Part shown: positions 5,683-32,248 of the stretch, in pieces
Numbering within the stretch: the stretch's first letter is position 1
Layout: each line of letters opens with the position of its first letter
Assembly (NCBI GenBank): GCA_001603275.1
Contig: LUYM01000030.1
Span: forward strand, 62,001-126,000
Direction of reading: 5' to 3'
Source: Actinomycetales bacterium Actino_02
GTDB lineage: Bacteria > Actinomycetota > Actinomycetes > Propionibacteriales > Propionibacteriaceae
Length of the DNA: 64,000 nt
Program-made: the position numbers and the translations under genes
Notes under the pieces: generated by a model
Seen by the model: only the letters and a program-made list of their open reading frames with translations
Told to the model about the DNA's origin: nothing
The model's database searches: none

Positions 5683-5786
5683 GGTCGTTCGAAACCGCCC
5701 TTCTAGGAGGTTCATGGATCAACCTCACTGGTCCGGATCGGCGTGCGGTGCGAGAATGTCCGACGCACGACCTGTGAGAGGAACCG

Positions 5787-6758
5787 GTGAGCGACCCAAA
5801 GACGAGCCAGTATTCGGCTGCGGCTCCGGCCTTCGCCCGCCTAGTCGCCCAGCATCTGGTGATGAAGCCGTACATCTGGTCGGCGCTCACCGTGAACCTC
5901 CACGGGCTGCGGAACCTGGACGACCTGAAGGCGCCGTTCGTGGTGATCGCGAACCATTCCAGCCATCTGGACGCACCGCTGATCTACGGTGCGCTGCCGC
6001 GGCGGCTCTCCCAGAATCTGGCCGCGGCCACCGCCGGCGACTACTTCTTCAACAGCTGGTACAAGGCGGTTCCCACCAAGCTGTTCTTCAACTCGTTCCC
6101 GGTGGTTCGGCAAGGTCACGCCAATCGCAACGGACAGCGCGGCATGGCCGCCAAGCTGGTCAACGACGGCGTTCCGATCCTGATCTTCCCCGAGGGCACC
6201 CGCTCACGGACCGGGGCCATGGCGAACTTCACCCCGGGTGCGGCTGCGTTGAGCATCTCCCGCAACGCCCCGATCCTGCCGATCGCCCTGGTCGGCGCCT
6301 ACGCCGCCATGCCGTACGGAGCGACCGTGCCGGTGCCCGGACGTCCGCACGTCCACGTAGTGTTCGGACGCCCGCTGCGGGCCACACCGGGCGAGACCGC
6401 CAGCCACTTCGCTGAACGGCTGCATCGCTATGTCGTCGAACTGCACGACTCGACCGCCCGCGCCTATGGGATGCCCACCCAGGCCGACTTCGCCCGCGCG
6501 GTCGCGCTGCGCTCGGCGGCAGCCCGCGCTGATCAGGCGGCCGAGGGTGCCGTCCGCGCCGAGCCGGAGCCGGCTCCGATCGCCGAGTCCAGCCAGCGGC
6601 TGGCCCCGCCGGAGCCGATCGACGAGACCGCGCCGTCCACCGACGAAGCCGTCACCCCGCTCGAGCCGCCGGACCAGATCGTCCCGCTCAGCCCGCCGGA
6701 ACCCGTCGTCCCGCTGGATCCGCCGGACACCGCAGCCGTCGAGCCCACTCAGAACTGA
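5787..6758 (+). CDS. 1-acyl-sn-glycerol-3-phosphate acyltransferase (PlsC family)
   Basis: 323 residues. It transfers an acyl chain to lysophosphatidic acid or a related acceptor at the inner membrane face during phospholipid synthesis. The acyltransferase block I is NHSSHLD (NHxxxxD, about residues 52-58) and block III is FPEGTRSRTG. A Pro/Glu-rich tail of about 75 residues with repeated PPEPxVPL units follows the domain and is unusual for the family. GTG start with GAGAGGAA upstream. Acceptor specificity cannot be judged. Confidence 0.9.
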   Translation: MSDPKTSQYSAAAPAFARLVAQHLVMKPYIWSALTVNLHGLRNLDDLKAPFVVIANHSSHLDAPLIYGALPRRLSQNLAAATAGDYFFNSWYKAVPTKLFFNSFPVVRQGHANRNGQRGMAAKLVNDGVPILIFPEGTRSRTGAMANFTPGAAALSISRNAPILPIALVGAYAAMPYGATVPVPGRPHVHVVFGRPLRATPGETASHFAERLHRYVVELHDSTARAYGMPTQADFARAVALRSAAARADQAAEGAVRAEPEPAPIAESSQRLAPPEPIDETAPSTDEAVTPLEPPDQIVPLSPPEPVVPLDPPDTAAVEPTQN

Positions 6759-6771
6759 CCACAGCCCCGGC

Positions 6772-6792
6772 AGCGCCTCAGCTGGAGGCGCT
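6772..6792. terminator. Hairpin between convergent genes
   Basis: A perfect 8-bp inverted repeat (AGCGCCTC, 5-base loop, GAGGCGCT) overlaps the stop codon of the YhgE gene and lies 14 bases after the acyltransferase gene. There is no T-run, so termination in either direction is only a possibility. Confidence 0.35.
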
Positions 6793-11709: not shown

Positions 11710-11733
11710 CAAGTCCTACGAGGGGGACGGCGG

Positions 11734-12420
11734 TCAGTCCCTCGCCGAGGGCGGCTGCCAGCCGGCCGCCTGCAGCCGGGCGATCCCGTCCAGCAGCAGG
11801 TCGAGGGAGAACTCGAACTCGAACTGGTCGTCGCAGCCACGCCCGACCACGGAGTCGCCCTGATGCGCGGACGCGGACGCCATCGCGGCCACGTTGGGGA
11901 ACGCGGCGGCGAGTTGGGCCAACACCTCCGGCGCCGGCGGTGGCGCTGCGGCGTCCGGATCGTCGAAGAGCTCCTGGGTGAAGCCCCAGGCCCGGCTCCC
12001 CATGGCGTGCATGACGTGGTGGGTCAGCACGTCACTGAAGCCGGCCTCCCGGAACACCGCGATCAGCCCGTCCAGGTAGCCGAGCATCGTCGGGGTCTGC
12101 TGCGGCCGGGTCTCCAGCACTCGGCGCAGCCAGGGGTGCCGCAACAGCAGCTGCCGAGCGGCCAGGATTCGGCCTCGGACGGTGGTTCGCCAGTCCGGTT
12201 CCGGGCGAATCGGGCCGAGGCCGGACAACACCAGGTCGGCCATCCCGTCCAGGAGCGCCTGCTTGTCGGCGACGTGCTTGTAGAGCGCCATCGGGACCAC
12301 CCCGAGCTCGGCGGCCAGTCGGCGCATGCTCACCGCGTCCAGGCCGTTGCGGTCGGTGAAATCGACGGCTGCAGCCAGGACGCGCTCTCGGCTGAGTCGC
12401 TCGCGTGCAGCGTCGGCCAT
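11734..12420 (-). CDS. TetR family regulator (TetR_C_1-type C-terminus)
   Basis: 228 residues. The N-terminal helix-turn-helix (about 10-55) reads AVSMRRLAAELGVVPMALYKHV, typical of TetR proteins, and the ligand-binding C-terminal domain resembles the tetracycline-repressor type. It is divergent from the DUF4386 gene and shares its promoter region, which holds two copies of a 15-bp palindrome overlapping both -10 elements, so it probably represses itself and that gene. Strong Shine-Dalgarno AAGGAGG. The MMPL operon lies downstream on the same strand, but its operators look different from this protein's sites. Confidence 0.9.
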   Translation of the reverse strand: MADAARERLSRERVLAAAVDFTDRNGLDAVSMRRLAAELGVVPMALYKHVADKQALLDGMADLVLSGLGPIRPEPDWRTTVRGRILAARQLLLRHPWLRRVLETRPQQTPTMLGYLDGLIAVFREAGFSDVLTHHVMHAMGSRAWGFTQELFDDPDAAAPPPAPEVLAQLAAAFPNVAAMASASAHQGDSVVGRGCDDQFEFEFSLDLLLDGIARLQAAGWQPPSARD

Positions 12421-12437
12421 GACTTCCTCCTTGACGG

Positions 12438-12485
12438 GCGTACGGCGTACACCTTATCGTTCTCGGCGAGGTGTACGCCGTACAC
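12438..12485. promoter_or_regulatory. Divergent promoter with paired 15-bp operators
   Basis: GTGTACGCCGTACAC at 12471-12485 is a near-perfect palindrome, and a copy with one change sits in inverse orientation at 12438-12452. Between them, overlapping -10 elements point both ways: TAAGGT (minus, toward the TetR gene) and TATCGT (plus, toward the DUF4386 gene). This arrangement suggests that one repressor dimer pair silences both genes. Confidence 0.75.
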
Positions 12486-12498
12486 CAAAGGAGTGATG

Positions 12499-13194
12499 AT
12501 GTCCGACCGTCGCACGGCCCTGATCGCCGGCCTGCTGTACCTGCTCACCTTCGCCGCCTCGATCGCGGCCCTGCCCCTGCTCGATCCCGTGCTGCACGGC
12601 CCGAGCTTCGTCACCGGCACCGTCGGGACGGCCCTGGTCCGCCTCGGCGCCCTCCTGGACCTGGTCAACGCGGCCGCCTGCGTCGGGACGGCCCTGGTGC
12701 TCTACCCGGTGTTGCGCCGGACCGCCCCGGTCGGCGGCCTCGGCTTCGTGGCCTCTCGGCTGATCGAGGCGGCGATCATCATCATGGGGGTGATTGCGCT
12801 GCTCACCGTGGTCGGGCTGCGTCCGTCCGACCCGTCGATGCTGCCGACCGCCTCGGCCCTGGTCGCCCTCCGCGATTGGACGTTCCTGCTCGGCCCCGGC
12901 CTGATGCCGGCCATCAACGCTGCCCTGCTCGGCACTGCACTGTGGCGGGCCCGGCTGGTGCCGAGCGCGATTCCGCTGCTCGGCCTGATCGGTGCACCGC
13001 TACAGCTGCTGTCGGTGCTGGCCACGTTCTTCGGGCTGAACACGCAGACCTCGCCGCTGTCGGCGGTGGCGGTGATCCCGATCTTCTTCTGGGAGCTCTC
13101 AGTCGGGCTGTGGTTGGCGATCCGCGGCTTCCGGACCTCCGCCCAGGCCACCGAAGTCGACGAGCCACTGCACCACCTCGCCACGTCGGACTAG
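12499..13194 (+). CDS. DUF4386 domain membrane protein
   Basis: 231 residues, six predicted transmembrane helices and little else; it matches the DUF4386 family, which starts TALIAGLLYLLTFAASI and has the LVNAAACVGTALVLYPVLRR pattern. Function unknown. It is divergent from a TetR gene and its promoter carries two matching operators, so it is probably induced by the TetR ligand. The Shine-Dalgarno AAAGGAG lies 5 bases before this ATG; a tandem ATG one codon earlier is too close. Confidence 0.85.
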   Translation: MSDRRTALIAGLLYLLTFAASIAALPLLDPVLHGPSFVTGTVGTALVRLGALLDLVNAAACVGTALVLYPVLRRTAPVGGLGFVASRLIEAAIIIMGVIALLTVVGLRPSDPSMLPTASALVALRDWTFLLGPGLMPAINAALLGTALWRARLVPSAIPLLGLIGAPLQLLSVLATFFGLNTQTSPLSAVAVIPIFFWELSVGLWLAIRGFRTSAQATEVDEPLHHLATSD

Positions 13195-14995: not shown

Positions 14996-16240
14996 ATGAC
15001 CACACCGTTGGCCGCCGCCCAGGCCGCCTATGACGAGCTGGCCGCGCTGGGCCTGAAGTTGAACCTGCAGCGCGGCCAACCCTCCGACGCCGACTTCGAC
15101 CTGTCGGACGGGCTGCTCACCGCCGTCACCCCCGGCAACACGACCATGGACGGTCTCGACCTGCGCAACTACCCCGGCGGAGTGGCCGGGCTGCCCAGCG
15201 CTCGGGCGCTGTTCGGCCGCTACCTGGGCCTGGACGCGGCCAACGTCGTGGTGTGGAACAACTCCTCCCTCGAACTGCAGGCGCTGGTGCTCGGCTTCGC
15301 GCTGCTCCACGGCGTCCGCGGCTCCGCGGGTGGCTGGGTGCATGAGCGTCCCAAGATGGTGGTGACCGTGCCCGGCTACGACCGGCACTTCCTGATGCTG
15401 ACCACGCTCGGCTTCGACCTGATCAGCGTCGGCATGGAGGCCGACGGGCCGGACGTCGCCGCGATCGAGGCGGCCGCCGCGGATCCGTCCGTGCGCGGCG
15501 TGCTGTTCGTCCCCACCTACTCCAACCCCGGTGGCGAGACCATCAGCGCCGCGAAGGCGGCCCGGCTAGCGGAAATGACGACCGCAGCGGACGACTTCAC
15601 GATCTTCGCCGACGACGCCTACCGGGCCCACCACCTCGGCGAGCCGGACGCCACCGTGAACCTGGTCGAGCTGTGCGCGCAGGCCGGCCACCCGGACCGG
15701 GCCTTCGTGTTCGGCAGCACCAGCAAGATCACCTTCGCCAGCGGTGGCTTGGGATTCGTCGGAACCTCGACGGCGAATGTGGCCTGGCTGTCGGAGCTGC
15801 TCAGCGCCCAGAGCATCGGGCCGAACAAGGTCGAGCAGGCGCGCCACGTCCGCTTCATCGAGGGCTACCCCGGCGGCATGGACGGCCTGATGCGCGCCCA
15901 CGCCGCGCTGATCGCCCCCAAGTTCGCCGCCGTGGACGAGGTGCTCTCCGCCGAGTTGGGCACCGACGGCTCCCTGGCCACGTGGACGACGCCGCGCGGC
16001 GGCTACTTCAGTTCGCTATTCACCACCGAGCCGGTCGCCGCCCGGGTCGTCGAGCTGGCCAACGCGGCCGGGGTGAGTCTGACTCCGGCCGGCGCCACCT
16101 ATCCGGGCGGCATCGACCCGGCGAACCGCAACATTCGGCTGGCCCCGACCCGTCCGCCGGTCGAGGAGGTGCGCACCGCAATGACGGTGGCCGCTGCCTG
16201 CGTCCGGCTGGCCACGCAGGAGTACCGCGCCGCTCGCTGA
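14996..16240 (+). CDS. PLP-dependent aminotransferase (class I, MocR-type fold)
   Basis: 414 residues. A fold type I pyridoxal-phosphate enzyme of the aspartate-aminotransferase group represented by Pfam Aminotran_MocR. It has LRNYPGGVAGLPSARALFG near the N-terminus, VPTYSNPGGET, the cofactor-ring Asp region IFADDAYRAHH, and the Schiff-base Lys in GSTSKITFASGG. There is no DNA-binding domain, so it is an enzyme and not a MocR regulator. Probable reaction: amino-group transfer between an amino acid (aspartate or similar) and 2-oxoglutarate. Start chosen by GAGGAGA 6 bases before the ATG; an upstream in-frame ATG lies inside the palindromic repeat. Confidence 0.9.
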   Translation: MTTPLAAAQAAYDELAALGLKLNLQRGQPSDADFDLSDGLLTAVTPGNTTMDGLDLRNYPGGVAGLPSARALFGRYLGLDAANVVVWNNSSLELQALVLGFALLHGVRGSAGGWVHERPKMVVTVPGYDRHFLMLTTLGFDLISVGMEADGPDVAAIEAAAADPSVRGVLFVPTYSNPGGETISAAKAARLAEMTTAADDFTIFADDAYRAHHLGEPDATVNLVELCAQAGHPDRAFVFGSTSKITFASGGLGFVGTSTANVAWLSELLSAQSIGPNKVEQARHVRFIEGYPGGMDGLMRAHAALIAPKFAAVDEVLSAELGTDGSLATWTTPRGGYFSSLFTTEPVAARVVELANAAGVSLTPAGATYPGGIDPANRNIRLAPTRPPVEEVRTAMTVAAACVRLATQEYRAAR

Positions 16241-17167
16241 TCAGCCGAACAGACTCCAGCCGAGTCGTCCGGCAAGGGACGCGGTGGCCGCCCGTCCGCG
16301 GACGGAGTTGCCGGCCTCGTCCAGTCGCGGCGAGAAGGTGCCGATGCCGGCGCGTCCGGGCGCGACGGCGAGGATCCCGCCGCCCAGGCCCGACTTGCCC
16401 GGCAGCCCGACCTGGTAGAGCCATTCGCCGCTGTGCTCGTACACCCCGGAGGTCGTCATCACCGCGAGCACCGGCGCACACACGTCCGCGGGCACCACGT
16501 CGACGCCGGTGATCGGGTTACGTCCGCGATTGGCGACGGTGGCCGCCATCACGCCCAGATCGCGGGCCGACACCTTCACACACGATTGCCGCGAGTACAG
16601 CTCCAGTGCCTCCCCCGGTTCACCGACCAACAACCCGCGCAGGGCCAGCGCCTCGGTGAGCTCGCGATTACGGACGTTCGTAGCGGCCACATCGGCCAGT
16701 AGCTCGGCATCGACGGCCAGCTCCCGTCCGGCGAACGCGGACAGCGCGGCCCGTAGACCCTCCCAGCGTTCCTCGAGGGACGCTCCGGGCAGCCGCGAGC
16801 AGGTGGCGATCGCACCGGCGTTGACCATCGGGTTCGTCCGGCCGTCGCGACGCTTGCGGACCGGCTCGACGGCGTTGAAGGCGTCCCCGGTGGCGTTCAC
16901 GCCCAGCTCGTCCGCTGCTCGGGCCGCACCCAATGCCTCACAGACCAGGGCGAACGTGAACGGCTTGGCTGCACTCATCAGGGCGAACTCCGCGGTGGCG
17001 TCGCCCACCTCGTCCTGGGAACCGTCGATCCCGGTGACGCTCAGCCCGAACTGCTCGGGGTCGGCACCGGCCAGGCTGGGGTAGATCGCCGCGTTCGCAC
17101 CATCGGTGATCGGCAGCACCTCGGCGTAGGTTGCAGCCAGCGCCTGGACGACGGACGGGTCTGACAC
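16241..17167 (-). CDS. glsA: Glutaminase
   Basis: 308 residues, the usual length of GlsA. It hydrolyses glutamine to glutamate and ammonia in the cytosol. The serine-hydrolase-like active site is visible as SAAKPFTF (Ser-x-x-Lys), with RTNPMVNAGAIAT, the Tyr region LELYSRQSCVKV and the C-terminal GLPGKSGLGGGILAV. The GTG start is chosen because TAAGGT lies 7 bases upstream. That promoter faces the cobU promoter in a 27-bp gap. Confidence 0.93.
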   Translation of the reverse strand: MSDPSVVQALAATYAEVLPITDGANAAIYPSLAGADPEQFGLSVTGIDGSQDEVGDATAEFALMSAAKPFTFALVCEALGAARAADELGVNATGDAFNAVEPVRKRRDGRTNPMVNAGAIATCSRLPGASLEERWEGLRAALSAFAGRELAVDAELLADVAATNVRNRELTEALALRGLLVGEPGEALELYSRQSCVKVSARDLGVMAATVANRGRNPITGVDVVPADVCAPVLAVMTTSGVYEHSGEWLYQVGLPGKSGLGGGILAVAPGRAGIGTFSPRLDEAGNSVRGRAATASLAGRLGWSLFG

Positions 17168-21481: not shown

Positions 21482-21991
21482 CTAGTCGACCAGCGAGATG
21501 TCGACCAGGATCTCGGCGGCCAGCCGCTCCAGGTCGGCGGTCAGCGCCTCCGGGTCGACCTCTTGAGGCAGCCGGGCCACCACGGTGGCCTCGAACAGGC
21601 GTCCGCCGGCCATCGGTGCGTCGATGATTCGGGTGGCCAGCTTCTCGATGCTGAGCCGATGCTGGTTCAGCACGTCCGTCACGTCGCGGACGATGCCGGG
21701 ATGGTCGTTGCCAAGGACGTTCAGCTCCACGCTGCGCCAGACCGGCGCCGGGAGGTCGGTACCAGGGTGGGTGGTGATCTTCAGCAGGCCGTCCAACTCA
21801 CCGAGTGCCTCGATGAGTTCGGCGCTACGGGCGTCCGGAACAGACACTTCGACCATGCCGGCAAAGGTGCCGGCCAACTCGGCCAGCCGACTCTGTTCCC
21901 AGTTGCCACCGTGTGCGCTGACCACTGTGGCCAGTGCTGCCACCAGCCCAGCCCGGTCGTCACCTACGACAGTCAGTACGAGATTCGCCAC
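21482..21991 (-). CDS. Two-ACT-domain protein (GcvR-like)
   Basis: 169 residues forming two ACT domains (about 1-80 and 85-165). The first begins VANLVLTVVGDDRAGLVAALA and the second VELNVLGNDHPGIVRDVTDVL (both read as family blocks), the amino-acid-binding pattern of GcvR-like proteins. It probably senses an amino acid and controls a partner; the target is unknown. The GTG start has TACGAT exactly 6 bases upstream and no Shine-Dalgarno, so a longer frame through the upstream repeat is rejected. Confidence 0.82.
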   Translation of the reverse strand: MANLVLTVVGDDRAGLVAALATVVSAHGGNWEQSRLAELAGTFAGMVEVSVPDARSAELIEALGELDGLLKITTHPGTDLPAPVWRSVELNVLGNDHPGIVRDVTDVLNQHRLSIEKLATRIIDAPMAGGRLFEATVVARLPQEVDPEALTADLERLAAEILVDISLVD

Positions 21992-22067
21992 TTGAGCATC
22001 GTAGTGTGCAGGCCGCAGGCCGGTTTCCGGGCCCGAACCGCGGTACTCACGCCTCAACCCGCGCCGT

Positions 22068-22133
22068 GGGGACGGTTCCGAAATTCGTAGCGCTGCCCCC
22101 TGACAAGGGGTGGACGGTAATGGAACCGTCCCC
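22068..22133. repeat. REP-like palindrome and half-copy
   Basis: A half element (GGGGACGGTTCCG, 22068-22080) is followed by a complete subtype-A copy at 22112-22133, with CCCCCTGACAAGGGG between them. They fill the gap between the ACT-domain gene and the thioredoxin-like gene. Confidence 0.85.
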
Positions 22134-22150: not shown

Positions 22151-22477
22151 CTAGTCGGGCATCGCGGCGTCGAGCTGGTCCAGCGCCGCGCTGAGCTCGC
22201 CGGTTCCCCAGGGACGGACGACCCGAGCCACCTCGACCCCGTCAGCCAGGAAGATCAACGTCGGCCACAGCTTCACCCGATAGGACCGGCCCAGCGGACG
22301 TCCCTTGCCGTCCTCCACCAGAATCCGGGCCAGGTCGTCGCGTCCGCCGAGCACCTGCTCGATGGCCGCGTCGGCGCCTTGGCAGTAGCCGCACCAGTTC
22401 GTGCCGAACTGCAGCACGGTTGCCCCGGCGAGCGCGTCCACCTCGTCCCGCGTGATCGACTCTGGCTGGTAATCCAT
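22151..22477 (-). CDS. Thioredoxin-family protein
   Basis: 108 residues with a thioredoxin fold. The redox site is WCGYC (about 28-32), which differs from the WCGPC/WCAPC of TrxA. The cis-proline region is KLWPTLIFLADG. The CGYC centre suggests a glutaredoxin- or bacterioredoxin-like role in the cytosol (no signal peptide). TAGCGT lies 6 bases before the ATG, so the mRNA is probably leaderless. It is separate from the trxA-trxB operon at 57.4 kb. Confidence 0.88.
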   Translation of the reverse strand: MDYQPESITRDEVDALAGATVLQFGTNWCGYCQGADAAIEQVLGGRDDLARILVEDGKGRPLGRSYRVKLWPTLIFLADGVEVARVVRPWGTGELSAALDQLDAAMPD

Positions 22478-22592: not shown

Positions 22593-23018
22593 CTACAGCA
22601 CGCCTTTGACCAGGACGAAGCAGGAGTAGCCGCGCGGCTCGCCGGTCTGGATGATCGCGTAGGCGGTGCGGGCCAGTTCGTAGAAGTCGAAACGCTCGAC
22701 AGCGGCGATCTCGACCTCACGTCCCTCGGCGGCGTTCACCTCCGCCTGGAACTCGCGGTGTGAGTCGAACCAGGTCTCGAGCTGTCCCGGCGGAACAATC
22801 CGGAGGGCGGACGGATCGTCGAAGGTATCCACCGGGAACAGCTCGAGGACGGCCCGTGCCACGGCCGCCGTGTCGGCGCCCGGCAGGTGGTGCACCCGCG
22901 AGGCCGAGGTTGTCGAAGGAAAGTTGCGGTCCACGATGGCCAGCCGATCGCCGTGACCCATCGCAGCCAGGTCAGCTAGCAGCTCCGGGGTGAGCAGCGG
23001 GGAGATCTTCTTCAGCAT
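22593..23018 (-). CDS. fucU: RbsD/FucU-family sugar mutarotase
   Basis: 141 residues. FucU/RbsD proteins interconvert anomers of free sugars such as fucose or ribose. Visible family features are the MLKKISPLLTPELLADLAAMGHGD start with its catalytic His, the IVDRNFPS segment and the C-terminal FYELARTAYAIIQTGE (FucU-type Tyr). The start overlaps the kinase stop by 7 bases and has GAGGAGG upstream, so it is the last gene of the sugar operon. It is closer to FucU than RbsD, but the true substrate is unknown. Confidence 0.88.
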   Translation of the reverse strand: MLKKISPLLTPELLADLAAMGHGDRLAIVDRNFPSTTSASRVHHLPGADTAAVARAVLELFPVDTFDDPSALRIVPPGQLETWFDSHREFQAEVNAAEGREVEIAAVERFDFYELARTAYAIIQTGEPRGYSCFVLVKGVL

Positions 23019-24238
23019 GTGCCCTCCTCAGACTGGCTTTCGGCACCCAGTGGCCCATAGACCAGAGTGCCAAGGAAGCCGCCCACGAAGGTGTCGCCCA
23101 GCCCGATGGTGGTCGGACGAGGCACGTCCAGCACCCGTCCGGGCACACAGCGGACGGTCTGGCCCAGCCGAGCCCGGATCGCCGCGCAGAACTCCGCCCC
23201 GCCGGCATGGACGTCCAGCTGCCGCACCGCATTCAGGTCACTGACCGTGAAGTTGTCGCCGTAGCAATAGCGGGTGCTGGCCAGGTCGATGCCGCCGGCC
23301 AGCGCAGCCTCGAACTCGCCGGCCCGAGCCCCGCGGGCCAGCGACCAGTACTTGGTGTGGATCACCACGGTCGGCGCGATCGCGAAACGGTCGAACTCGT
23401 CCAAGGCGGCCAGCACGTCGTCCAGGTCGAGCAGGTTCACCCGCCGGCCCAGATAGGACTGCAGCTCGTCCTCGTTGAGGCTATGCACGTCGATGCGTCC
23501 GCGGAAGTCGCGGCTGACGATCTCCCGCATCGCGTTGTCGTGATAGCCGGCGTCCTCGTAGAACACCACTGCCTGCGCCGGGAGCCGGGTCATCGCCTGC
23601 TGCAGGAAGGCGATCCGGTCGGCCAACAACTCCTGATCGCGCATCACGTTGAAGCCGGACGGGAGGAACGCCCGCGCGCCGGCCAGGACCGTGGGGAGCT
23701 CCGGGCTGAGCACCAGATCCCGGTTCGGCGGATCGTTCACGTAGATGATCCGGTTCGGATGGACGGCCCGTACTTCCCCATCGAGCATCGCCACGCTCGC
23801 CCCGGCGGGGAACTGGACGATCACGTGCGGATCGAGGGAATCCCCCGATGCACTGCACAGGTAATCGATCCCCGCCGGGAGCAAGCGACGGACGTTGTCG
23901 TCGATGCTGACCAGGTGCACCAAGCTGGGCACGCCCAGCTTGGCGATCGCCAGGGCGGCCCGTACGCAGGTGCCACCCAGGGTGATCTGGTAGTCGAAGC
24001 GCTCCGCGAACTCGATCCCCAACTGCGACGAGGCGACGAACTTCTCGCCTCCGCTGTCGGCGTCCAGGAACGCCAGGATCGAGCAGACCAAGTCACGCTC
24101 GTCCCGGACCGGAGCGGTCACGTCGAGGTCGGCCCGGGTGATCCGATACTGCTGGGCCAGCGTGGCCAGTAGCTCGGCGTCCCAGGCGATCTCGAAATCG
24201 ACGGTTCCGCCCAGTCCGAGGACGAGTTCGTGGGTCAT
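23012..24238 (-). CDS. ADP-dependent phosphofructokinase/glucokinase-family sugar kinase
   Basis: 408 residues of the ADP_PFK_GK family, ribokinase-like enzymes that use ADP as phosphoryl donor and are best known from archaea and animals. Seen are GLGGTVDFEI at the N-terminus, TLGGTCVRAALAIAKLG, VVFYEDAGYHDNAMREI, HTKYWSLARG and the C-terminal anion-hole/catalytic-base motif GLGDTFVGG. Length is slightly under the archaeal enzymes (about 450). Operon position after a class II aldolase and before a mutarotase suggests phosphorylation of a ketose or ketose phosphate. ADP use is family knowledge, not shown here. ATG chosen with GGAGAT upstream. Confidence 0.85.
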   Translation of the reverse strand: MTHELVLGLGGTVDFEIAWDAELLATLAQQYRITRADLDVTAPVRDERDLVCSILAFLDADSGGEKFVASSQLGIEFAERFDYQITLGGTCVRAALAIAKLGVPSLVHLVSIDDNVRRLLPAGIDYLCSASGDSLDPHVIVQFPAGASVAMLDGEVRAVHPNRIIYVNDPPNRDLVLSPELPTVLAGARAFLPSGFNVMRDQELLADRIAFLQQAMTRLPAQAVVFYEDAGYHDNAMREIVSRDFRGRIDVHSLNEDELQSYLGRRVNLLDLDDVLAALDEFDRFAIAPTVVIHTKYWSLARGARAGEFEAALAGGIDLASTRYCYGDNFTVSDLNAVRQLDVHAGGAEFCAAIRARLGQTVRCVPGRVLDVPRPTTIGLGDTFVGGFLGTLVYGPLGAESQSEEGTC

Positions 24239-24258
24239 TGGGGAACTATCTCCAACTT

Positions 24259-25125
24259 TCAGCGGTACAGGCCGGCCTTGCCGTCCGCACCGAACAGACG
24301 GATCTTGTGCGCAGCCACCTCGTTCATGGCGTCGATGCAAGCCGGCTGGATCATCAGCGGCTCACGCAGCTTGGGATCATCACCGAGCACCTCGCGCATC
24401 TTGGCGTGGTAGGCCACCTTGATGTCGGAGGAGATGTTGATCTTGTTGATGCCGGTCTTCGCGGCGATGCCGATCTCGTCGTCGGGGTTGTTCGAACCGC
24501 CGTGCAGCACCAGCGGAATCGGCAGCACCGCCTTGATCTCCTTGAGCAGCTCGAGCTTGAGCTCGGGCTTCATGCCGGCCGGGTAGAGGCCATGGAAGGT
24601 GCCGATGGCGACCGCCAGGCTGTCCACGCCGGTCTGCTCGACGAACTTCACTGCGTCCTCGGGCTTGGTGTAGATGACCTCGGCCGCACCGGACTCACCG
24701 TAGGCGTCGTTGGCGCCGATGGTGCCGAGCTCGGCCTCCACCGAGAGCCCGACGGCATGCGCAGCGGCGACGACCTTCTTGGTGATGGCGACGTTCTCCT
24801 CGAACGGCTTGATCGAGGCGTCGATCATCACCGAGGTGTAGCCGTTCTGGATCGAGGTGAGCACCTGCTCGTAGGTGCCGCCGTGATCGAGGTGGACGGC
24901 CATCGGCACGGACGAGCGGTACGCGCGAGCCAGGATCGCCTTGATCATGTCCGGGCCGATGTGGTCGTACTCATCGGGGTGGATCGCCACGATCCACGGC
25001 GCCTGCAGCTCCTCGCAGAGGTCCGAGATCCCCTGGAACATCGCGTAATCGCTGATGTTGAACGCCGGCACAGCGAAGCCGTGCTCGTTGGCGACCTTCA
25101 GAACTCCGTCACCGCTGGTAAGCAT
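24259..25125 (-). CDS. Class II (zinc) ketose-bisphosphate aldolase
   Basis: 288 residues, FbaA/GatY/KbaY type. It cleaves a ketose 1,6-bisphosphate to dihydroxyacetone phosphate and an aldehyde phosphate. Zinc and substrate motifs are present: the N-terminal AVPAFNISDY, HLDHGG (zinc His), EAELGTIG, GTFHGLYP (second His) and PLVLHGGSN (third His). Fructose- versus tagatose-bisphosphate preference cannot be decided. It is followed after 20 bases by the ADP-dependent kinase. The Shine-Dalgarno AAGGAG sets the start. Confidence 0.92.
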   Translation of the reverse strand: MLTSGDGVLKVANEHGFAVPAFNISDYAMFQGISDLCEELQAPWIVAIHPDEYDHIGPDMIKAILARAYRSSVPMAVHLDHGGTYEQVLTSIQNGYTSVMIDASIKPFEENVAITKKVVAAAHAVGLSVEAELGTIGANDAYGESGAAEVIYTKPEDAVKFVEQTGVDSLAVAIGTFHGLYPAGMKPELKLELLKEIKAVLPIPLVLHGGSNNPDDEIGIAAKTGINKINISSDIKVAYHAKMREVLGDDPKLREPLMIQPACIDAMNEVAAHKIRLFGADGKAGLYR

Positions 25126-25163
25126 GCTATTTCTCCTTGTGTTTCTTTGTTTGGTAGGGAAGA

Positions 25164-26003
25164 TCAGTTCTTGACCGCACCGGCAGTCATGCCGCCGATG
25201 AAGTACCGCTGGAAGAAGAGGAAGAGCAGCATGATCGGGATCGAGCCGAGGATCGACATCGACATCATCTGATTCCACTCATAGGAGTGCTGGCCCATCA
25301 GCAGCTGGATGCCGATCGGCACCGTCCGCATCTCCGGGGTCTTGGTCAGGGTCAGCGCGAACAGGTACTCGTTCCAGGCGATCATGAAGGTGTAGATGCC
25401 GACCGAGACCAGGCCGGGGATGCTGATCGGAACCAGCACCCGCCACAGCGCCGTCCATGAGGATCCGCCGTCGACCTTGACCGCCTCGTCCAACTCACGC
25501 GGCAAGGTGTTGAAGTAGCCGGTGAGCATGATGATCGCGTAGGGCAGGGTGAACACCAGATAGGTCAGGATCAGCCCGGCGTAGCTGTTGTACAGGCCCA
25601 AGAAGACGATCAGGCCGAAGTAGGGGATCAGCAGCGTGATCGGCGGGACGGCCTGGACGCTGACGATGATCATGTTCAGGATCTTCTTGAACGGGAACTC
25701 GTAGCGGCTCAGCGCGAAGGCGGCCAGAATGCCGACCAGCAGGGTGAGCGCGGTCACCGAGAGCGAGACGAAGTAGCTGTTCAGGAAGAAGCGCACCTTG
25801 GTCGGATCGGTGAAGATCGCGGTGTAGGCGTCGAAGGTGAACGTGGTCGGGATCAGATGCGGCGGGAACTGGAAGATGTCGGTGTTCGGCTTGAACGAGC
25901 TCGACAGCATCCACAGCACCGGCGCTCCGGCGAAGACCGCACCGATCAGCAGTGCGATGACCAGGCCGGTACGGGCCAACATTCGAGTCTGGGCTTTGGT
26001 CAT
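25164..26003 (-). CDS. Carbohydrate ABC transporter permease, MalG type
   Basis: 279 residues, about six membrane helices. The inner-membrane permease of a sugar importer. The cytoplasmic EAA loop that contacts the ATPase reads LDEAVKVDGGSSW...VPISIPGL, and the tail FFQRYFIGGMTAGAVKN is typical of MalG-like subunits. It starts 2 bases after the stop of the other permease. No ATPase gene occurs in the locus, so a shared MsiK-type ATPase is the likely partner. Confidence 0.93.
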   Translation of the reverse strand: MTKAQTRMLARTGLVIALLIGAVFAGAPVLWMLSSSFKPNTDIFQFPPHLIPTTFTFDAYTAIFTDPTKVRFFLNSYFVSLSVTALTLLVGILAAFALSRYEFPFKKILNMIIVSVQAVPPITLLIPYFGLIVFLGLYNSYAGLILTYLVFTLPYAIIMLTGYFNTLPRELDEAVKVDGGSSWTALWRVLVPISIPGLVSVGIYTFMIAWNEYLFALTLTKTPEMRTVPIGIQLLMGQHSYEWNQMMSMSILGSIPIMLLFLFFQRYFIGGMTAGAVKN

Positions 26004-26005
26004 GA

Positions 26006-26959
26006 TCAGTCCCTCGCCTTCTGGGCGCGGACGTAGAAGAACGCGAGCACCATCGAGATGACCAGGACGATCACGGCCGCAGCCGACGCCGTCCCGAACT
26101 GGTACTTGGTGAAGGCCAGCTTGTAGGTGAACGTGCTCAACATCTCGGTGGTGCCGAGCGGGCCGCCGCCGGTGGTCATCCAGATCAACGCGAACTGCTG
26201 CGTCGTCCAGATGAAGTCCAGCAAGGCCATGCTGATGATGATCGGCTTGAGCTGCGGCAAGGTGATCCGGGTGAAACGCTGCCAGGCGCTGGCACCGTCC
26301 ACCTGCGCGGCTTCGTAGTACTCACCGGGGATCCCCTGCAGACCGGCCAGCAGGCTGGTCATGTAGAACGGGTAGCCGGACCAGATGTTGATGAAGGTGA
26401 CTGCGAAGAGGGCGGTGTCGGGAGAGCCCAGCCATTCGATCTGCGAGCCGGCCAGCTGCGACGCCGTCAACAGGTAGTTGATCACGCCGTTCGGCTCCAG
26501 CAGTAGCCGCCACAGCACGGCGATGATCGCCACGGTGAACAGCCAGGGCAGGACGTAGATGGTCCGGAAGATCGCCTTGACCCGGTGGCCGAGGAGCTCG
26601 CTGTTGAGCATCATGGCGAAGGCCAGGCCGAGGACCAGGTGAGCAACGACGCTCACTCCGGTGAAGAACAAGGTGTTGGTAGCGGCCGTCCAGAAGCTGT
26701 CGCTGGTCAGGATGTCGCTGTAGTGCTTGAACCCGACGAACTGCGGGTTCTTCTTCATGATCACGTTGTCCATCAGCGAGTAGCCGACGACCATCACGAT
26801 CGGGATGACCATCAAGACGGTCAGCAGAACAACGGTGGGGCTGAGGTACCCAAAGGGGACCAGGGCCTTGGCCAGCCCTTTCTTGCTTCCAGTCGCCTGA
26901 ACCCGGCTACCGCCCGGCCCAGTGCGCTTGGCTCGTGCCGGGAGCGTGGTGGTACTCAC
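26006..26959 (-). CDS. Carbohydrate ABC transporter permease, MalF type
   Basis: 317 residues with a cytoplasmic basic N-terminus and about six membrane helices. The EAA loop reads YEAAQVDGASAWQRFTRITL, followed by PQL. It pairs with the MalG-type permease encoded just downstream to form the translocation pore for the substrate delivered by the binding lipoprotein encoded upstream. Confidence 0.93.
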   Translation of the reverse strand: MSTTTLPARAKRTGPGGSRVQATGSKKGLAKALVPFGYLSPTVVLLTVLMVIPIVMVVGYSLMDNVIMKKNPQFVGFKHYSDILTSDSFWTAATNTLFFTGVSVVAHLVLGLAFAMMLNSELLGHRVKAIFRTIYVLPWLFTVAIIAVLWRLLLEPNGVINYLLTASQLAGSQIEWLGSPDTALFAVTFINIWSGYPFYMTSLLAGLQGIPGEYYEAAQVDGASAWQRFTRITLPQLKPIIISMALLDFIWTTQQFALIWMTTGGGPLGTTEMLSTFTYKLAFTKYQFGTASAAAVIVLVISMVLAFFYVRAQKARD

Positions 26960-27034
26960 CGCGCCTCCTTTCGATCATGGAGTGGGGGCCCCAGGTGAAC
27001 CTTGAGGCCCCCACTCTGGTACATCAGGTTGGGA

Positions 27035-28339
27035 TCAGCCGGCGAAAGCTGCGTCCCAGGCCTTCTGTGCGGCGGCCAGCGCATCATCTGCGGACTGCTT
27101 GCCAGCCAGGTACTTCTGGAACTGCTCATCGAAGGACCGCATCAGATCCTCGGCCACCGGCAGGCCGGTGAACTCGTTGGTCGGAGTCCCTGCCTGGTAG
27201 ATGTCGAAGGCCTGCTTGAAGATCGCGTCGGTGTTCACGAAGTCCGGGACGGCCTGGGCGTTGCCCGGGAAGGCGTGAGCCGAGTTGCACAAGGTGGCGT
27301 TGACGTCCTTGCCGAGCAGGAAGGCGACCAGCTTGAAGGCCTCGGCCTGGTGCTTGGAGTTGGCGGCCACGCCGATGCCCCAGGATGCGTACGGCATCCC
27401 GCGCTTGCCCGAGTAGCCATCGGCCGACGGGATTGCGGCGACCTGGAACTTCAGGTCCTTGTTCTGCTCGCGGATCAGGTTCACGTGAGCCAGGGAGTCG
27501 ATCATCATGCCGACCCGGCCGTTGGTGAACTCGTTGACCTTGTCCTGCTCCTTCATGGTGAAGCTGCCCTTGGCGATCGAGCCGGCGTCGTACATGCCCT
27601 TGATGAACTCCATGGCGGACTTCACATCAGCATTGCCGGTCAGGTACGGCTTGCCGTCCTTGAGCATCGAGCCACCGGACGACCAGACCCAGCTCATCAC
27701 GTCGTTCTGGATGCCGTTGGGGGCGCTGGAATCCAGCGGCAGGACCCAGCCGGCGGTGTTGTTGCCGAGCTTGGTCAGCGCCGCGGCGGCAGCGGTGAAC
27801 TCGGTGCGGTTGGTCGGGACGGCCGAGACGCCGGCCTTCTTCAGCAGATCGTCGTTGACGAACATCGGGTAGACGAAGTTCGCCACCGGGATCATCCAGG
27901 TGGAGCCGTCCAGCTGAACCTGAGCAGCCAGCTGGCTCTCATCGAAGCTGGCGGCCTTCATCAGCTCGGTCAGGTTGGCCAGAGACCCCTGCTTGACGAA
28001 GTCGTTGACCCAGGCTCCGTCCAGGCCGACCACGTCGGACATGGTGCCGGCTGCCGCACCCGCGACAACCTGCTCCTTGGTGGAGGCATACGGGCCGCTG
28101 ATCAGCTTGACCTTGATGCCCGGGTTTTCCTTCTCGAACTGATCCATCAGGCCGCGCAGGGCGTTGGCGGGCAGTTCCGGCTCCCACCACTGGGCGAATT
28201 CGAGGGTTACATCCTCAGCGGCGGCGCTGGCGCTACCTGCGGCTGAAGTCGGTGCGGTGGTGCTGCCACTTGCACATCCCGTCATTGCCAGGGTTGCTGC
28301 TGCCATCACAGCGATCCCTGCCAGGAACTTCTTACGCAT
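27035..28339 (-). CDS. Sugar ABC transporter substrate-binding lipoprotein
   Basis: 434 residues, family 1 extracellular solute-binding protein. A lipoprotein signal peptide (MRKKFLAGIAVMAAATLAMT) is followed by the lipobox Cys (MTGC, about residue 21) and a Ser/Thr/Ala linker. The body includes VTLEFAQWWEPELPANALRG and GMPYASWGIGVAANSKHQ (SBP family blocks). It captures an unknown sugar for the two permeases encoded downstream. AAGGGAG precedes the ATG. It is the first gene of the minus-strand sugar operon. Confidence 0.93.
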   Translation of the reverse strand: MRKKFLAGIAVMAAATLAMTGCASGSTTAPTSAAGSASAAAEDVTLEFAQWWEPELPANALRGLMDQFEKENPGIKVKLISGPYASTKEQVVAGAAAGTMSDVVGLDGAWVNDFVKQGSLANLTELMKAASFDESQLAAQVQLDGSTWMIPVANFVYPMFVNDDLLKKAGVSAVPTNRTEFTAAAAALTKLGNNTAGWVLPLDSSAPNGIQNDVMSWVWSSGGSMLKDGKPYLTGNADVKSAMEFIKGMYDAGSIAKGSFTMKEQDKVNEFTNGRVGMMIDSLAHVNLIREQNKDLKFQVAAIPSADGYSGKRGMPYASWGIGVAANSKHQAEAFKLVAFLLGKDVNATLCNSAHAFPGNAQAVPDFVNTDAIFKQAFDIYQAGTPTNEFTGLPVAEDLMRSFDEQFQKYLAGKQSADDALAAAQKAWDAAFAG

Positions 28340-28564
28340 CTCACTCCCTTGTTCGTGCGTGACGCGCCGGAGGAGCGGCGACTCCGCTCTGAGACTCACG
28401 ATCGCGCCGGCGATGCTCATCCTGCCGTCGATTTCCTCCGAGAGTCAAGGCATTTTTGCGGGTTCTTGCGGTTACAGATCGATAACTTCCGCGGACTCTT
28501 GCCACCACTGCGGGAATTGTGGCAGGATTTTCGCAGAAAGCCGCACCCCCAAGGGAGAGAGAGT
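28340..28564. promoter_or_regulatory. Divergent control region of the sugar locus
   Basis: This 225-base gap separates the sugar-binding lipoprotein gene from the DeoR gene. It holds an inverted repeat TGCCAC-N13-GTGGCA (28500-28524) and a tandem 10-bp repeat TTTTTGCGGG/TTCTTGCGGT (28453-28472). The T-rich stretches stand out in this GC-rich DNA. These are candidate DeoR operators; neither promoter can be placed firmly. The plus side ends in the Shine-Dalgarno AAGGGAGAGA. Confidence 0.5.
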
Positions 28565-29389
28565 ATGGCCAAGGAGAACCTCTACCCCGCCCGACGCCGC
28601 GCCGAAATGCTGGAGTTCCTGCGTGACCGTGGGCAGGCCTCCATTCACGAGCTGTCGACGCAGTTCGCCGTCTCGGAGGACACCGTCCGCCGTGATGTCG
28701 AGACGTTGGCGAACCAGGGCTCGGTCGAGCGGACGCACGGTGGAGTGACCATCTCCCGCGATGACCGCTTCAACGATGTGGTGCCCTTCGTGAAGCGGAT
28801 CGATGCACACTCTGCAGCCAAGGACGAGATCGCTCGAGTGGCGTCCACCTTCATCGAAGAGGGCCAGAGCCTGATCATCTACGGCGGCACCACCACGCTG
28901 GCACTGGCCAAGTATCTGGCCGCGCTGCGCGGGATCACCGTCGTCACCAACAACCTGGCCCTGCCCCAGGAGCTGTACTCCCGCGGGGTGCGTGAGATCT
29001 ACGTGCTGGGGGGCTCGTTCCGTCCGCGCTCCCAGGTGACCATCGGCCCGGTGGCTCTGTCCGACGGGGCCGGCAAGCCGCGCTCGATCCACGCCCGGTG
29101 GGCGATCATCGGCGTCGGCGGCGTCTCCGACGAGGGGACGGTGTGGACCAGCAGCCTGCCGGAGGCCGGGATGATGCGGGAGATGATGGACTGCGCCTCG
29201 CACACCCTGCTGCTGGCTGATGCCACCAAGTTCGGCAAGCGTGAGTTCGCCGAGGTCGCCGATCTGTCGGCCAACACCACCTTGATCACCGAGAAGCGGC
29301 CCAGCCAGGCGCTGCTCGACATGGCCGCCGAAGTCGGCGCCCGAGTGATCGTCACCAGCGAGTTCGAGGACGCCCAGTCCCGCGACTGA
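28565..29389 (+). CDS. DeoR-family transcriptional regulator
   Basis: 274 residues. The N-terminal winged helix-turn-helix contains SIHELSTQFAVSEDTVRRDV, and the C-terminal DeoR sensor domain has DEIARVASTFIEEGQSLII, GGTTTLALAKYL, VVTNNLALPQEL and LLLADATKFGKREF. DeoR proteins bind a sugar phosphate and usually repress sugar-use operons. It is divergent from the ABC importer operon and 26 bases before the cupin isomerase gene, so it likely controls the whole locus. Confidence 0.93.
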   Translation: MAKENLYPARRRAEMLEFLRDRGQASIHELSTQFAVSEDTVRRDVETLANQGSVERTHGGVTISRDDRFNDVVPFVKRIDAHSAAKDEIARVASTFIEEGQSLIIYGGTTTLALAKYLAALRGITVVTNNLALPQELYSRGVREIYVLGGSFRPRSQVTIGPVALSDGAGKPRSIHARWAIIGVGGVSDEGTVWTSSLPEAGMMREMMDCASHTLLLADATKFGKREFAEVADLSANTTLITEKRPSQALLDMAAEVGARVIVTSEFEDAQSRD

Positions 29390-29415
29390 GCCGACACATT
29401 CCGAATCGAGATCCG

Positions 29416-30636
29416 ATGTCCGCCGTCCCTACCTTCACTACCGCTGCCGCCGATCGGGCCCTTGATGCCGGGGACGGTGTCGTCCGGCTCGCGCCGACCT
29501 GGGTGCCCCGCGTCTTCTCCACTCCCGGACGACGCATTCGGCTGCACCCCGACGACTACTACGCCTTCGGCAAGGATCGCGGTGGCATCGACGAGCGCTG
29601 GTTGGCCTCACCGATCACGGCCGACAACGGCCCTGACACCGGCGAGTTCGAGGGGCTCAGCCTGGTCCGCGGCCCGGAAGGTGAGTTGATTCCGTTCGAC
29701 CAGTTCATCGCCCATCACGGTGCCCAGCTGATCGGCTCACGGATCTGGTCGGCGTGGGCCAAGTGGCCGGTGTTCGCCAAGTTCTTCGACAACGAGCAGG
29801 CGCTGCCGTTCCACGTCCATCACCGCGACGAGCAGGCCCGGGCCATCGGCAAGGTCTCCAAGCCGGAGGCCTACTACTACGCCCCGCAGCTGAACAATCA
29901 TCTGGCCGCCCATCCGGTCTCCTTCCTGGGCCTGCAGCCGGGCGTGACCCGAGACCAGCTCCGCGATCGGCTGATCGGCTTCAGCAAGGGCGGTGACAAC
30001 CGGATCACTGATCTGTCCTTCGGCTATCGCACCCAGCTGGGCACCGGCTGGGACGTCCCGGCCGGCGTTCTGCACGCCCCGGCCAGCGCCTGCACCTACG
30101 AGCCACAAGCGGCCTCGGACGTGCTGTGCATGTGCGAGTCGTGGAGCAACAACCGTGAGGTGCCCGACGAGTTGCTCTGGAAGGACGCCCCGGCCGACCG
30201 GGTCGGCGACTACGACTACATCCTCGATCTGCTCGACTGGGAGCTGAACACCGATCCGGACTTCACCAGCAGCCGACGGCTGATCCCGTTCCAGACCGCC
30301 GAGTCGGTGGCGGCGGCCGACCCGGGTTACGTCGAGAAGTGGATCGTCTACAAGTCGGCGATGTTCAGCGCCAAGGAGCTGACCGTGCGCCCGGGCGCGA
30401 GCGTGGTGATCACCGACACCGACGCCTACGGTGTGATCGTGATCCAGGGGCATGGACGCTTCGGCGTCCATCCGGCCGCGGCGCCGACGCTGATCCGTTT
30501 CGGCGAGCTGACCGAGGACGAGTTCTTCGTCTCCGAGCCGGCCGCGCGCAGTGGCGTCCGGGTGGTCAACGAGAGTTCGACGGAACCGTTGGTGCTGCTG
30601 AAGAACTTCGGGCCGGGAACCGCGCCCAGCTTCTGA
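29416..30636 (+). CDS. Phosphomannose-isomerase-like cupin (sugar isomerase)
   Basis: 406 residues resembling type I mannose-6-phosphate isomerases. Metal-ligand candidates are LPFHVHHRDEQAR (two His and an acid), the nearby KPEAYYY motif and VPAGVLHAPAS (His), matching the zinc-site pattern of that family. A second cupin-like domain follows in the last 100 residues. It probably interconverts an aldose and a ketose (or their phosphates) before the kinase and aldolase encoded across the divergent promoter. It could instead be a non-catalytic cupin. Co-transcription with deoR is likely. Confidence 0.78.
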   Translation: MSAVPTFTTAAADRALDAGDGVVRLAPTWVPRVFSTPGRRIRLHPDDYYAFGKDRGGIDERWLASPITADNGPDTGEFEGLSLVRGPEGELIPFDQFIAHHGAQLIGSRIWSAWAKWPVFAKFFDNEQALPFHVHHRDEQARAIGKVSKPEAYYYAPQLNNHLAAHPVSFLGLQPGVTRDQLRDRLIGFSKGGDNRITDLSFGYRTQLGTGWDVPAGVLHAPASACTYEPQAASDVLCMCESWSNNREVPDELLWKDAPADRVGDYDYILDLLDWELNTDPDFTSSRRLIPFQTAESVAAADPGYVEKWIVYKSAMFSAKELTVRPGASVVITDTDAYGVIVIQGHGRFGVHPAAAPTLIRFGELTEDEFFVSEPAARSGVRVVNESSTEPLVLLKNFGPGTAPSF

Positions 30637-31239: not shown

Positions 31240-32196
31240 TCAGCCGAGCAGCCGCGCCTTCTCCGCTACGGGCAGGAAGGACGCCTCGATGCTGTTGCGA
31301 GCCAGCGTGCCCAGCTGATCCTGGCTGAGCCCGAACTGGTCGCGGACGGCGGCCAGATTGTCGTCCAGGTAGCCACCGAAGTAGGCCGGGTCGTCAGAGT
31401 TCACGGTGACCAGCAGGCCGGCGTCCAACATGGCCGGAAGCGGATGGGCAGCCAGGCTGGGCACCGCCTTCAGCCGGACGTTCGACAGCGGGCAGCTGGT
31501 CAGCGGGATCCGGTGCTCGGCCAGATGTGCGACCAGAGCCGGATCCTCCATGGCGCGGATGCCGTGGTCGATGCGTTCGACCTTCAACTCGCGCAGTGCC
31601 TCCCAGACGTAGTCGGGCCCGCCTTCCTCACCGGCGTGGGCCACGGTGTGCAGACCGTCGGCACGGGCGCGTTGCCAGAGTGGGGCGAACGGCGCAGCCG
31701 GGAAACCGACCTCGGACGAGCAGAGCCCGATCCCGAGCAGTTCTACCCCGGTGGCCAGCGCCTGGTCGTAGGCGTGTACGGCGTCGTCCGCGCTGAGGTG
31801 GCGCAGGAAGGTGACGATCAGCCCCGAGCTGACGCCGTGGTCGGCTTCGGAGCGGCTCAATGCGTCGCTGACACCGGCCAGCACCACGTCCGCCGGCACT
31901 CCCCGCGCCGTATGTGCTTGTAGATCCAAGAACACCTCGGCCCGGACGACACCGGCCCGGGCCGCCCGGGCCAGGTAGGCATCGGCCAGTTCGGCGAAGT
32001 CGGCCTCGGTGCGCAGCACCGCCATGTTGGCGTAGTAGATGTCCAGGAAATCCTGCAGACAGCCGTAGTCGAGGCGGGAGCGCAGGTCGTCCACATCGCG
32101 CCAGGGGAGCTGGACGTGGTTGCGCTCAGCCAACTCGAAGGCCAGCTCCGGCTCGAGCGTCCCCTCCAGGTGAAGGTGCAACTCCGCGAACCCCAT
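31240..32196 (-). CDS. Adenine-deaminase-type member of the adenosine deaminase family
   Basis: 318 residues. A zinc hydrolase that deaminates adenine or adenosine in purine salvage. It has HLHLEG (zinc HxH) at residues 6-11, the catalytic HAGEEGG, VERIDHGIR, and VTVNSDDPAYFGGYLDDNL. The CPLSNVRLK and DDPAYFGGY motifs are those of the adenine deaminase branch more than of classical adenosine deaminases, which is why I lean that way; biochemical specificity is not proven. ATG with GGGAG upstream; a GTG two codons earlier is possible. Confidence 0.87.
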   Translation of the reverse strand: MGFAELHLHLEGTLEPELAFELAERNHVQLPWRDVDDLRSRLDYGCLQDFLDIYYANMAVLRTEADFAELADAYLARAARAGVVRAEVFLDLQAHTARGVPADVVLAGVSDALSRSEADHGVSSGLIVTFLRHLSADDAVHAYDQALATGVELLGIGLCSSEVGFPAAPFAPLWQRARADGLHTVAHAGEEGGPDYVWEALRELKVERIDHGIRAMEDPALVAHLAEHRIPLTSCPLSNVRLKAVPSLAAHPLPAMLDAGLLVTVNSDDPAYFGGYLDDNLAAVRDQFGLSQDQLGTLARNSIEASFLPVAEKARLLG

Positions 32197-32248
32197 GACC
32201 ACTCCCGTCCTGCTGTTCCGGCGATGCTATCGCTGTCCGTCGCAGCCT

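Follow-up and report, generated by a model that had tools for sequence, protein, structure and literature searches.

A conserved actinobacterial gene cassette with an ADP-dependent-family kinase, a class II aldolase and a proposed role in sugar catabolism

ADP-dependent sugar kinases are glycolytic enzymes of archaea and animals. Animals also break down fructose by way of fructose 1-phosphate, using ketohexokinase, aldolase B and triokinase. According to three reports (PMC8873060, PMC12890257, PMC9594981), the sulfo-Embden-Meyerhof-Parnas (sulfo-EMP) pathway follows a plan of isomerase, C1 kinase and aldolase forming dihydroxyacetone phosphate (DHAP), a plan also given in PMC11968277. Here we describe a locus (positions 22593-30636) in a 64,000-nucleotide stretch of contig LUYM01000030.1 from Actinomycetales bacterium Actino_02, the whole of which we call the window. 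Its eight tightly packed genes form two divergent runs about 0.2 kb apart, with fucU, kinase, aldolase, two permease genes and a sugar-binding protein gene on the minus strand; the plus strand carries the gene for a DeoR regulator, followed by that for a cupin (Table 1). We propose, giving the proposal an even chance, that this is a conserved actinobacterial sugar-catabolic cassette by which an imported sugar is isomerised to a ketose, phosphorylated at C1 and cleaved to DHAP and a C3 aldehyde.

In such a pathway a ketose would become a ketose 1-phosphate and then DHAP and glyceraldehyde, as in the animal route with its triose kinase; the cassette differs from that route in its kinase family, its bacterial ATP-binding cassette (ABC) import operon and an isomerase that is included or fused. 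As in sulfo-EMP and sulfo-EMP2, an isomerase, a C1 kinase and a DHAP-forming aldolase would be clustered with non-orthologous enzymes swapped in, the AGE-family isomerase of some related loci likening the cassette to sulfo-EMP and its class II aldolase likening it to sulfo-EMP2. Unlike sulfo-EMP, the cassette has a kinase of the ADP_PFK_GK family rather than PfkB or PfkA and an isomerase that is a cupin or resembles mannosephosphate isomerase (MPI). It also differs in that no sulfolactaldehyde enzyme or sulfosugar exporter was recognised by eye in the listed neighbourhoods. The neighbourhood lists cover 25 loci, with downstream-only lists for 21 loci and detailed ones for six, the rest being reached by family queries only. 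Their genes were called with a simple program that overlooks or joins some of them, and most names were given by eye from the opening residues.

We assembled 45 kinase loci, comprising the window, 12 loci from its order, three named contigs, nine from its class and 20 from the order of genome G935; L027, the same contig as L016, was left out of the count. Kinase relatives were detected by protein search in 13/293 genomes of the order and by Pfam model in 10/394 genomes of the class (own genome included in both), as well as in 23/198 genomes of the order of G935 and 6/22 of the family of G773, these samples overlapping. A contig scan with one protein gave four records: a Propionicimonas metagenome-assembled genome (MAG), two Propionibacteriaceae MAGs and one 'Actinobacteria bacterium' MAG. 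Altogether, the loci span 11 actinobacterial family codes (f1, f2, f9, f11, f94, f114, f116, f118, f120, f121, f125) plus the named MAGs. A six-gene core of regulator, three importer genes, aldolase and kinase was found together in 41/45 loci, counting as complete L028 (kinase off the contig end), L101 (aldolase in two pieces) and L111 and L112 (deoR not divergent); the remaining four comprise a lone kinase (L025), a kinase remnant (L026) and two loci at contig ends (L030, L106). Given how widely this core is kept, the gene clustering is not due to chance. We rejected the cupin and FucU as core members, as they occur in 7/45 and 4/45 loci, respectively (FucU in the window, L015, L019 and L030).

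A sequence-only reading of the window had described a unit of seven genes whose joint conservation in relatives could be checked. The unit is indeed conserved, with eight genes in place of seven, and conservation extends to the core, not to the mutarotase or cupin. An importer without an ATPase, a class II aldolase, an ADP_PFK_GK kinase and a divergent DeoR regulator were all recovered by Pfam as that reading had placed them, while its FucU mutarotase belongs to the RbsD_FucU family and stays under the cut-off of the L-fucose mutarotase (FucU equivalog) model (79 vs 141). A phylum search of 396 genomes with the first kinase alignment returned only the own gene and one 20-bit partial match, which reflects the limits of that first look, because Pfam-model searches of related samples found many more; searching the kinase against plasmids gave no match.

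By profile and by predicted fold, the kinase can confidently be placed in the ADP-dependent sugar kinase family. When a profile of 22 kinases was compared with PDB, structures of ADP-dependent glucokinases (GK) and phosphofructokinases (PFK) came first (1ua4, E 3.8e-15 over profile positions 4-384), and adenosine kinases appeared only at E 0.1 or worse. Moreover, ADP-dependent kinases made up all of the 22 best PDB folds for the AlphaFold2 model (mean predicted local distance difference test, pLDDT, 91.4), with E from 1e-22 to 4e-15, ahead of a probable sugar kinase (2e-10). A single-sequence PDB search of the kinase gave chance matches only, and the NCBIfam ADP-glucokinase equivalog cut-off was not reached (35.6 vs 387). 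The likeness to archaeal and eukaryotic PF04587 enzymes covers the fold, the full-length profile, equivalents of Asp36, Glu90 and Arg206, and the NXXE and GXGD motifs; the differences are Gly for Asn32, no equivalents of Lys179 and Arg212, and a gene that shares its catabolic operon with an aldolase gene. The host genome (3.05 Mb) holds this one PF04587 match.

Manual mapping by way of the 1ua4 and ancMT 5k27 alignments placed the residues on AncMsPFK, using numbering offsets deduced from how conserved residues are spaced; the counts cover 44 rows (the L026 remnant was left out of the counts and the tree). In PMC7948494, AncMsPFK mutagenesis assigns Lys179, Asn181 and Arg212 to fructose 6-phosphate (F6P), while Arg206 contacts the ADP beta-phosphate and Asn32 is highly conserved in the ADP-dependent family. 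Arg163 (equivalent to Arg206) was present in 44/44 rows, Asp14 (Asp36) in 43/44 with one gap, and Glu65 (Glu90) and the GLGD end in all scored rows, which keeps ADP plausible as phosphate donor. The Lys179 position held Asp in 32 rows, Tyr in 6, Asn in 4 and Glu and His in 1 each, with Lys in 0; that of Arg212 was Asp in 44/44; and that of Asn181 (His138) was His in 42/44, as in the Thermococcus litoralis glucokinase, and Asn in 2/44. This loss of residues serving the F6P phosphate suggests that the kinase acts on an unphosphorylated substrate. A glucokinase-like sugar site (Glu65, and His138 in most rows) would also suit a scheme in which the kinase acts first, producing a hexose 6-phosphate in the manner of an ADP-glucokinase or mannokinase; the MPI-like enzyme would then convert mannose 6-phosphate to F6P, and the aldolase would cleave F6P to dihydroxyacetone and glyceraldehyde 3-phosphate or follow a housekeeping PFK.

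The aldolase bears on both C1 phosphorylation and this kinase-first scheme. Among the NCBIfam models shown, the window enzyme passed only the cut-off of the broad TIGR00167. Compared with Escherichia coli AgaY, every scored row keeps the metal ligands and catalytic Asp (Asp82, His83, His180, His208) as well as Asn230, as in the class II tagatose and fructose bisphosphate aldolases KbaY/AgaY and FbaA. Unlike these, the cassette aldolases have EP(L/N/D) in place of the DPR motif in 42/42 main-type rows, the AgaY-Arg257 position being Asn in 29, Leu in 11 (including the window), Asp in 2 and Arg in 0; for this count L101 was dropped, and L114, L115 and the second L108 aldolase were scored apart. 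In PMC5434028 we found no passage on the role of the DPR arginine. Within the own genome, the two other PF01116 aldolases carry DPR (L064) and DPP (L065). The cassette aldolases keep the residues of the DHAP-phosphate side and lose the presumed C6-phosphate arginine, which argues against kinase-first chemistry, as does the redundancy of an adjacent bisphosphate aldolase in a genome with those two further copies.

A second cassette type (L108:8393-9625 and 11712-12566; L114; L115) has the same importer and regulator, together with a divergent second kinase, a short-chain dehydrogenase/reductase (SDR) and an aldolase that keeps DPR, Arg257 being retained in 3/3; L108 carries the two kinases and the two aldolases as tandem pairs. 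Elsewhere, the lone kinase at L025:9538-10503 has no cassette and is matched only from residue 74 onward, and the remnant at L026:9186-10803 adjoins a full-length MPI-like gene.

The isomerase slot is filled by different families. A cupin occurs in 7 of the 45 loci (window, L015, L016, L018, L019, L028, L029), an MPI-like protein in 16 (L023, L026, L042, L048, L049, L094-L097, L099, L104, L106, L107, L109, L112, L113) and an AGE protein in 2 (L017, L045), with none within 7.5 kb in 20 and two types together in 0. The MPI-like gene lies directly 3' of, or is fused to, the kinase gene in 13/16 loci, the others being about 1 kb downstream (L112), beyond deoR (L023) or next to the kinase remnant (L026). 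Two fusions are single frames of 736 aa (L048) and 731 aa (L049), whose second part is ~50% identical to stand-alone MPI-like proteins; hmmscan of L049 recovered the kinase together with a weak match to cupin or manA. Four MPI-like proteins scanned against TIGR00218 reached at most 57 bits (cut-off 116). These weak matches favour the kinase-first scheme, as does the classical use of mannose 6-phosphate by MPI-like proteins. The two AGE proteins, which score 305 and 339 bits on PF07221 and 425 and 422 on the D-mannose isomerase model (L017, 422; cut-off 600), point the other way: AGE-type D-mannose isomerases act on free sugars, and they fill the same slot. We regard the kinase-first scheme as unlikely.

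Exchange of the isomerase is also visible on the kinase tree, which was built from 44 sequences by a quick method and has several long branches and weak deep forks: isomerase type changes 3 times among isomerase-bearing rows and 13 times over all four states. L017, with AGE, falls inside a clade (starred in the tree) of 9 kinases, of which 7 have the cupin; in its genus, the four further kinase loci apart from the window all carry the cupin.

The 406-aa cupin had been called phosphomannose-isomerase-like by the sequence-only reading; it has no match in Pfam or NCBIfam, and the likeness emerges from profile-profile comparison. The cupin profile (which leaves out L018, with its cupin in two frames, and L017 and L030, with no cupin) aligned to MPI-like profiles by hhalign (E 5e-6, probability 86) across the core that holds H-x-H, KPE and GxxH, so a remote relationship to MPI is the best reading of the cupin. 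Its single-sequence PDB search gave chance matches plus a mannosephosphate isomerase with a weak E of 0.53, and its structure model reached pLDDT 37.6, the six close sequences being too shallow an alignment. Cupin relatives occur in 6/296 genomes of the class, distant ones near other sugar-ABC genes. A 68%-identical cupin lies near an arylsulfatase-like gene in L058 (G851, ~5029-10787); the 20 kb displayed there contain no kinase cassette, and G851 has no PF04587 match. The L018 cupin gene (15738-16906) is split over two reading frames, through sequencing error or decay.

Combined, these results outline a possible pathway, and the isomerase-kinase-aldolase logic put forward from the sequence is supported, as is a single conserved catabolic unit. 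The ABC importer would bring in an unphosphorylated aldose, which the isomerase (cupin here, MPI-like or AGE-type elsewhere) would convert to a ketose; the kinase would phosphorylate this ketose at C1, and the class II aldolase would cleave the ketose 1-phosphate to DHAP and a three-carbon aldehyde, glyceraldehyde being the likeliest. Glyceraldehyde could be collected by general metabolism or, in a few relatives, by adjacent DhaKLM or glycerate kinase. Genes for DhaK, DhaL and DhaM (TIGR02363, TIGR02365, TIGR02364) lie 3' of the kinase in L111 and of the MPI-like gene in L112, and a glycerate kinase gene (PF02595) lies 3' of the kinase in L016 and L029; these amount to two lineages, L111 and L112 having one genus code in common and L016 being closely related to L029. 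Their presence beside four loci is consistent with glyceraldehyde as product, although DhaKLM in L111 and L112 could also collect the dihydroxyacetone of the kinase-first scheme. A role in housekeeping glycolysis was rejected: elsewhere the genome has four PF00365 matches and the two other PF01116 aldolases. It also has one type I phosphomannose isomerase (PMI) away from the cassette.

The same chemistry might instead act on a pentose or a 6-deoxy sugar, giving DHAP and glycolaldehyde or lactaldehyde. An aldolase lacking the C6-phosphate contact may tolerate any C6, and the mutarotases of the RbsD/FucU family, where present, would suit such substrates; conversely, reading the neighbour lists by eye revealed no enzyme for lactaldehyde or glycolaldehyde, and the DhaKLM and glycerate kinase genes of the four loci and two lineages suggest glyceraldehyde. 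We judge this version decidedly unlikely.

A sulfoquinovose cluster of sulfo-EMP type with a replaced kinase would have the identical reaction order, an AGE-family isomerase (as YihS) in two loci and a class II aldolase as in sulfo-EMP2, and aldo/keto reductase-like (L017) or alcohol dehydrogenase-like (L024) neighbours could in principle take an aldehyde. Yet the listed neighbourhoods, read by eye, showed no recognisable sulfoquinovosidase, sulfonate exporter, or reductase or dehydrogenase for sulfolactaldehyde, no reductase family recurs there at main-type cassettes, and the known sulfofructose kinases are PF00294 or PF00365 proteins. We consider this reading highly improbable, and sulfoquinovose was rejected as the default substrate because those lists showed no recognisable sulfolactaldehyde enzyme.

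Several observations weigh against the proposed ketose 1-phosphate pathway. One concerns the 20/45 loci with no isomerase nearby: an unlinked MPI-like copy (49-50% identity to L042) was found in 6/19 of the no-isomerase genomes searched (G773, G836, G844, G1040, G1076, G1140), and the L042 protein gave no or only weak matches in the remaining 13/19. The isomerase step is therefore absent or of another kind in many loci. In the kinase, the Asn32 position is Gly10 in 43/44 rows, with one gap, so that the pocket and even the donor may differ. In the aldolase, Arg257 (DPR) is presumed to bind the C6 phosphate. A dihydroxyacetone kinase is also compatible with free dihydroxyacetone as product. Finally, what we take to be an aldo/keto reductase-like gene after AGE in L017 and a zinc alcohol dehydrogenase-like gene after the kinase in L024 are not needed by the pathway. 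A presumed alcohol dehydrogenase-like gene, named by eye, also lies two genes away in L113.

No ATPase gene was seen within the cassette. The genome holds a single OB_MalK match, elsewhere at C11:31034, and a shared ATPase is likely for this reason. That match and the genome's only type I PMI match lie ~3.4 kb apart (G000:C11:31034-35036). The DeoR protein, judging from its family, would act at the divergent promoter as a repressor that gives way to the sugar or to a phosphorylated intermediate. A TGCGG-type repeat occurs there in 1 copy in the window against 0.01 expected from shuffling; allowing up to 3 mismatches, a plus-strand site was found in 7/8 near-relative gaps (L018 on the other strand only) and in only 9/33 of the remaining gaps, but this support is circular, because the motif was built from those same gap sequences. 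A promoter scan of the locus found no sigma-70-like site, and terminators were no more frequent than chance. The cassette is flanked in the window by genes for an adenosine deaminase (31240-32202) and an ACT-domain protein (21482-22090), which among the relatives compared adjoin it in L015 only, and by a frame we take to be thioredoxin-like (22154-22477). Near the f94 cassettes (L047-L050, same 20-kb stretches) lies what we assume to be a sialidase-like gene, with a presumed DapA-like gene also in L047 and L048; these probably form a separate unit.

Table 1. Features of the cassette locus in the window and the evidence for each
Feature	Position	Strand	Evidence
RbsD/FucU-family sugar mutarotase/pyranase, accessory	22593..23018	-	PF05025 RbsD_FucU, 112 bits; overlaps kinase end
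ADP-dependent PFK/GK-family sugar kinase, core	23012..24238	-	PF04587 ADP_PFK_GK, 59.7 bits (cut-off 27); profile and fold
Class II DHAP-type aldolase, core	24259..25125	-	PF01116, 290 bits; metal ligands kept
ABC permease, MalG/GlcU type, core	25164..26003	-	PF00528; top NCBIfam GlcU, under cut-off
ABC permease, MalF/GlcT type, core	26006..26959	-	PF00528; top NCBIfam MalF and GlcT, under cut-off
ABC sugar-binding lipoprotein, core	27035..28339	-	PF01547, 119 bits; N-terminus a lipoprotein signal by sequence
Candidate operator repeat, TGCGG-type, divergent promoter region	28453..28469	+	Motif scan vs shuffling
DeoR-family regulator, core	28565..29389	+	PF00455, 134 bits; PF08220, 60 bits
406-aa cupin, distant type I phosphomannose-isomerase-like; proposed aldose-ketose isomerase	29416..30636	+	hhalign; no Pfam match

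These results indicate that the cassette is real and widespread in actinobacteria, and it is apparently undescribed: our literature search, which reached few subscription papers, found no description of the gene set, and one paper, on CPR metabolism, names PF04587. The sequence-only reading had reported no known match, which stands for the gene set, while the layout is paralleled by sulfo-EMP and by animal fructose breakdown; its archaeal/eukaryotic ADP-dependent kinase type agrees with the leading profile match and the leading folds. Tentatively, and with more doubt than for the cassette as a whole, the kinase could be an ADP-driven ketose 1-kinase, a branch of the ADP-dependent glycolytic kinases recruited to a bacterial fructolysis-type pathway in several actinobacterial families, with, or sometimes fused to, a mannose-isomerase-like partner. 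The assignment is testable with three soluble enzymes, or with the natural kinase-isomerase fusion and the aldolase. If true, it would suggest a function for the unannotated cupin, and the ADP-dependent kinase family, paired in a conserved bacterial operon with an isomerase and an aldolase of its own, would gain a new job and a new specificity.

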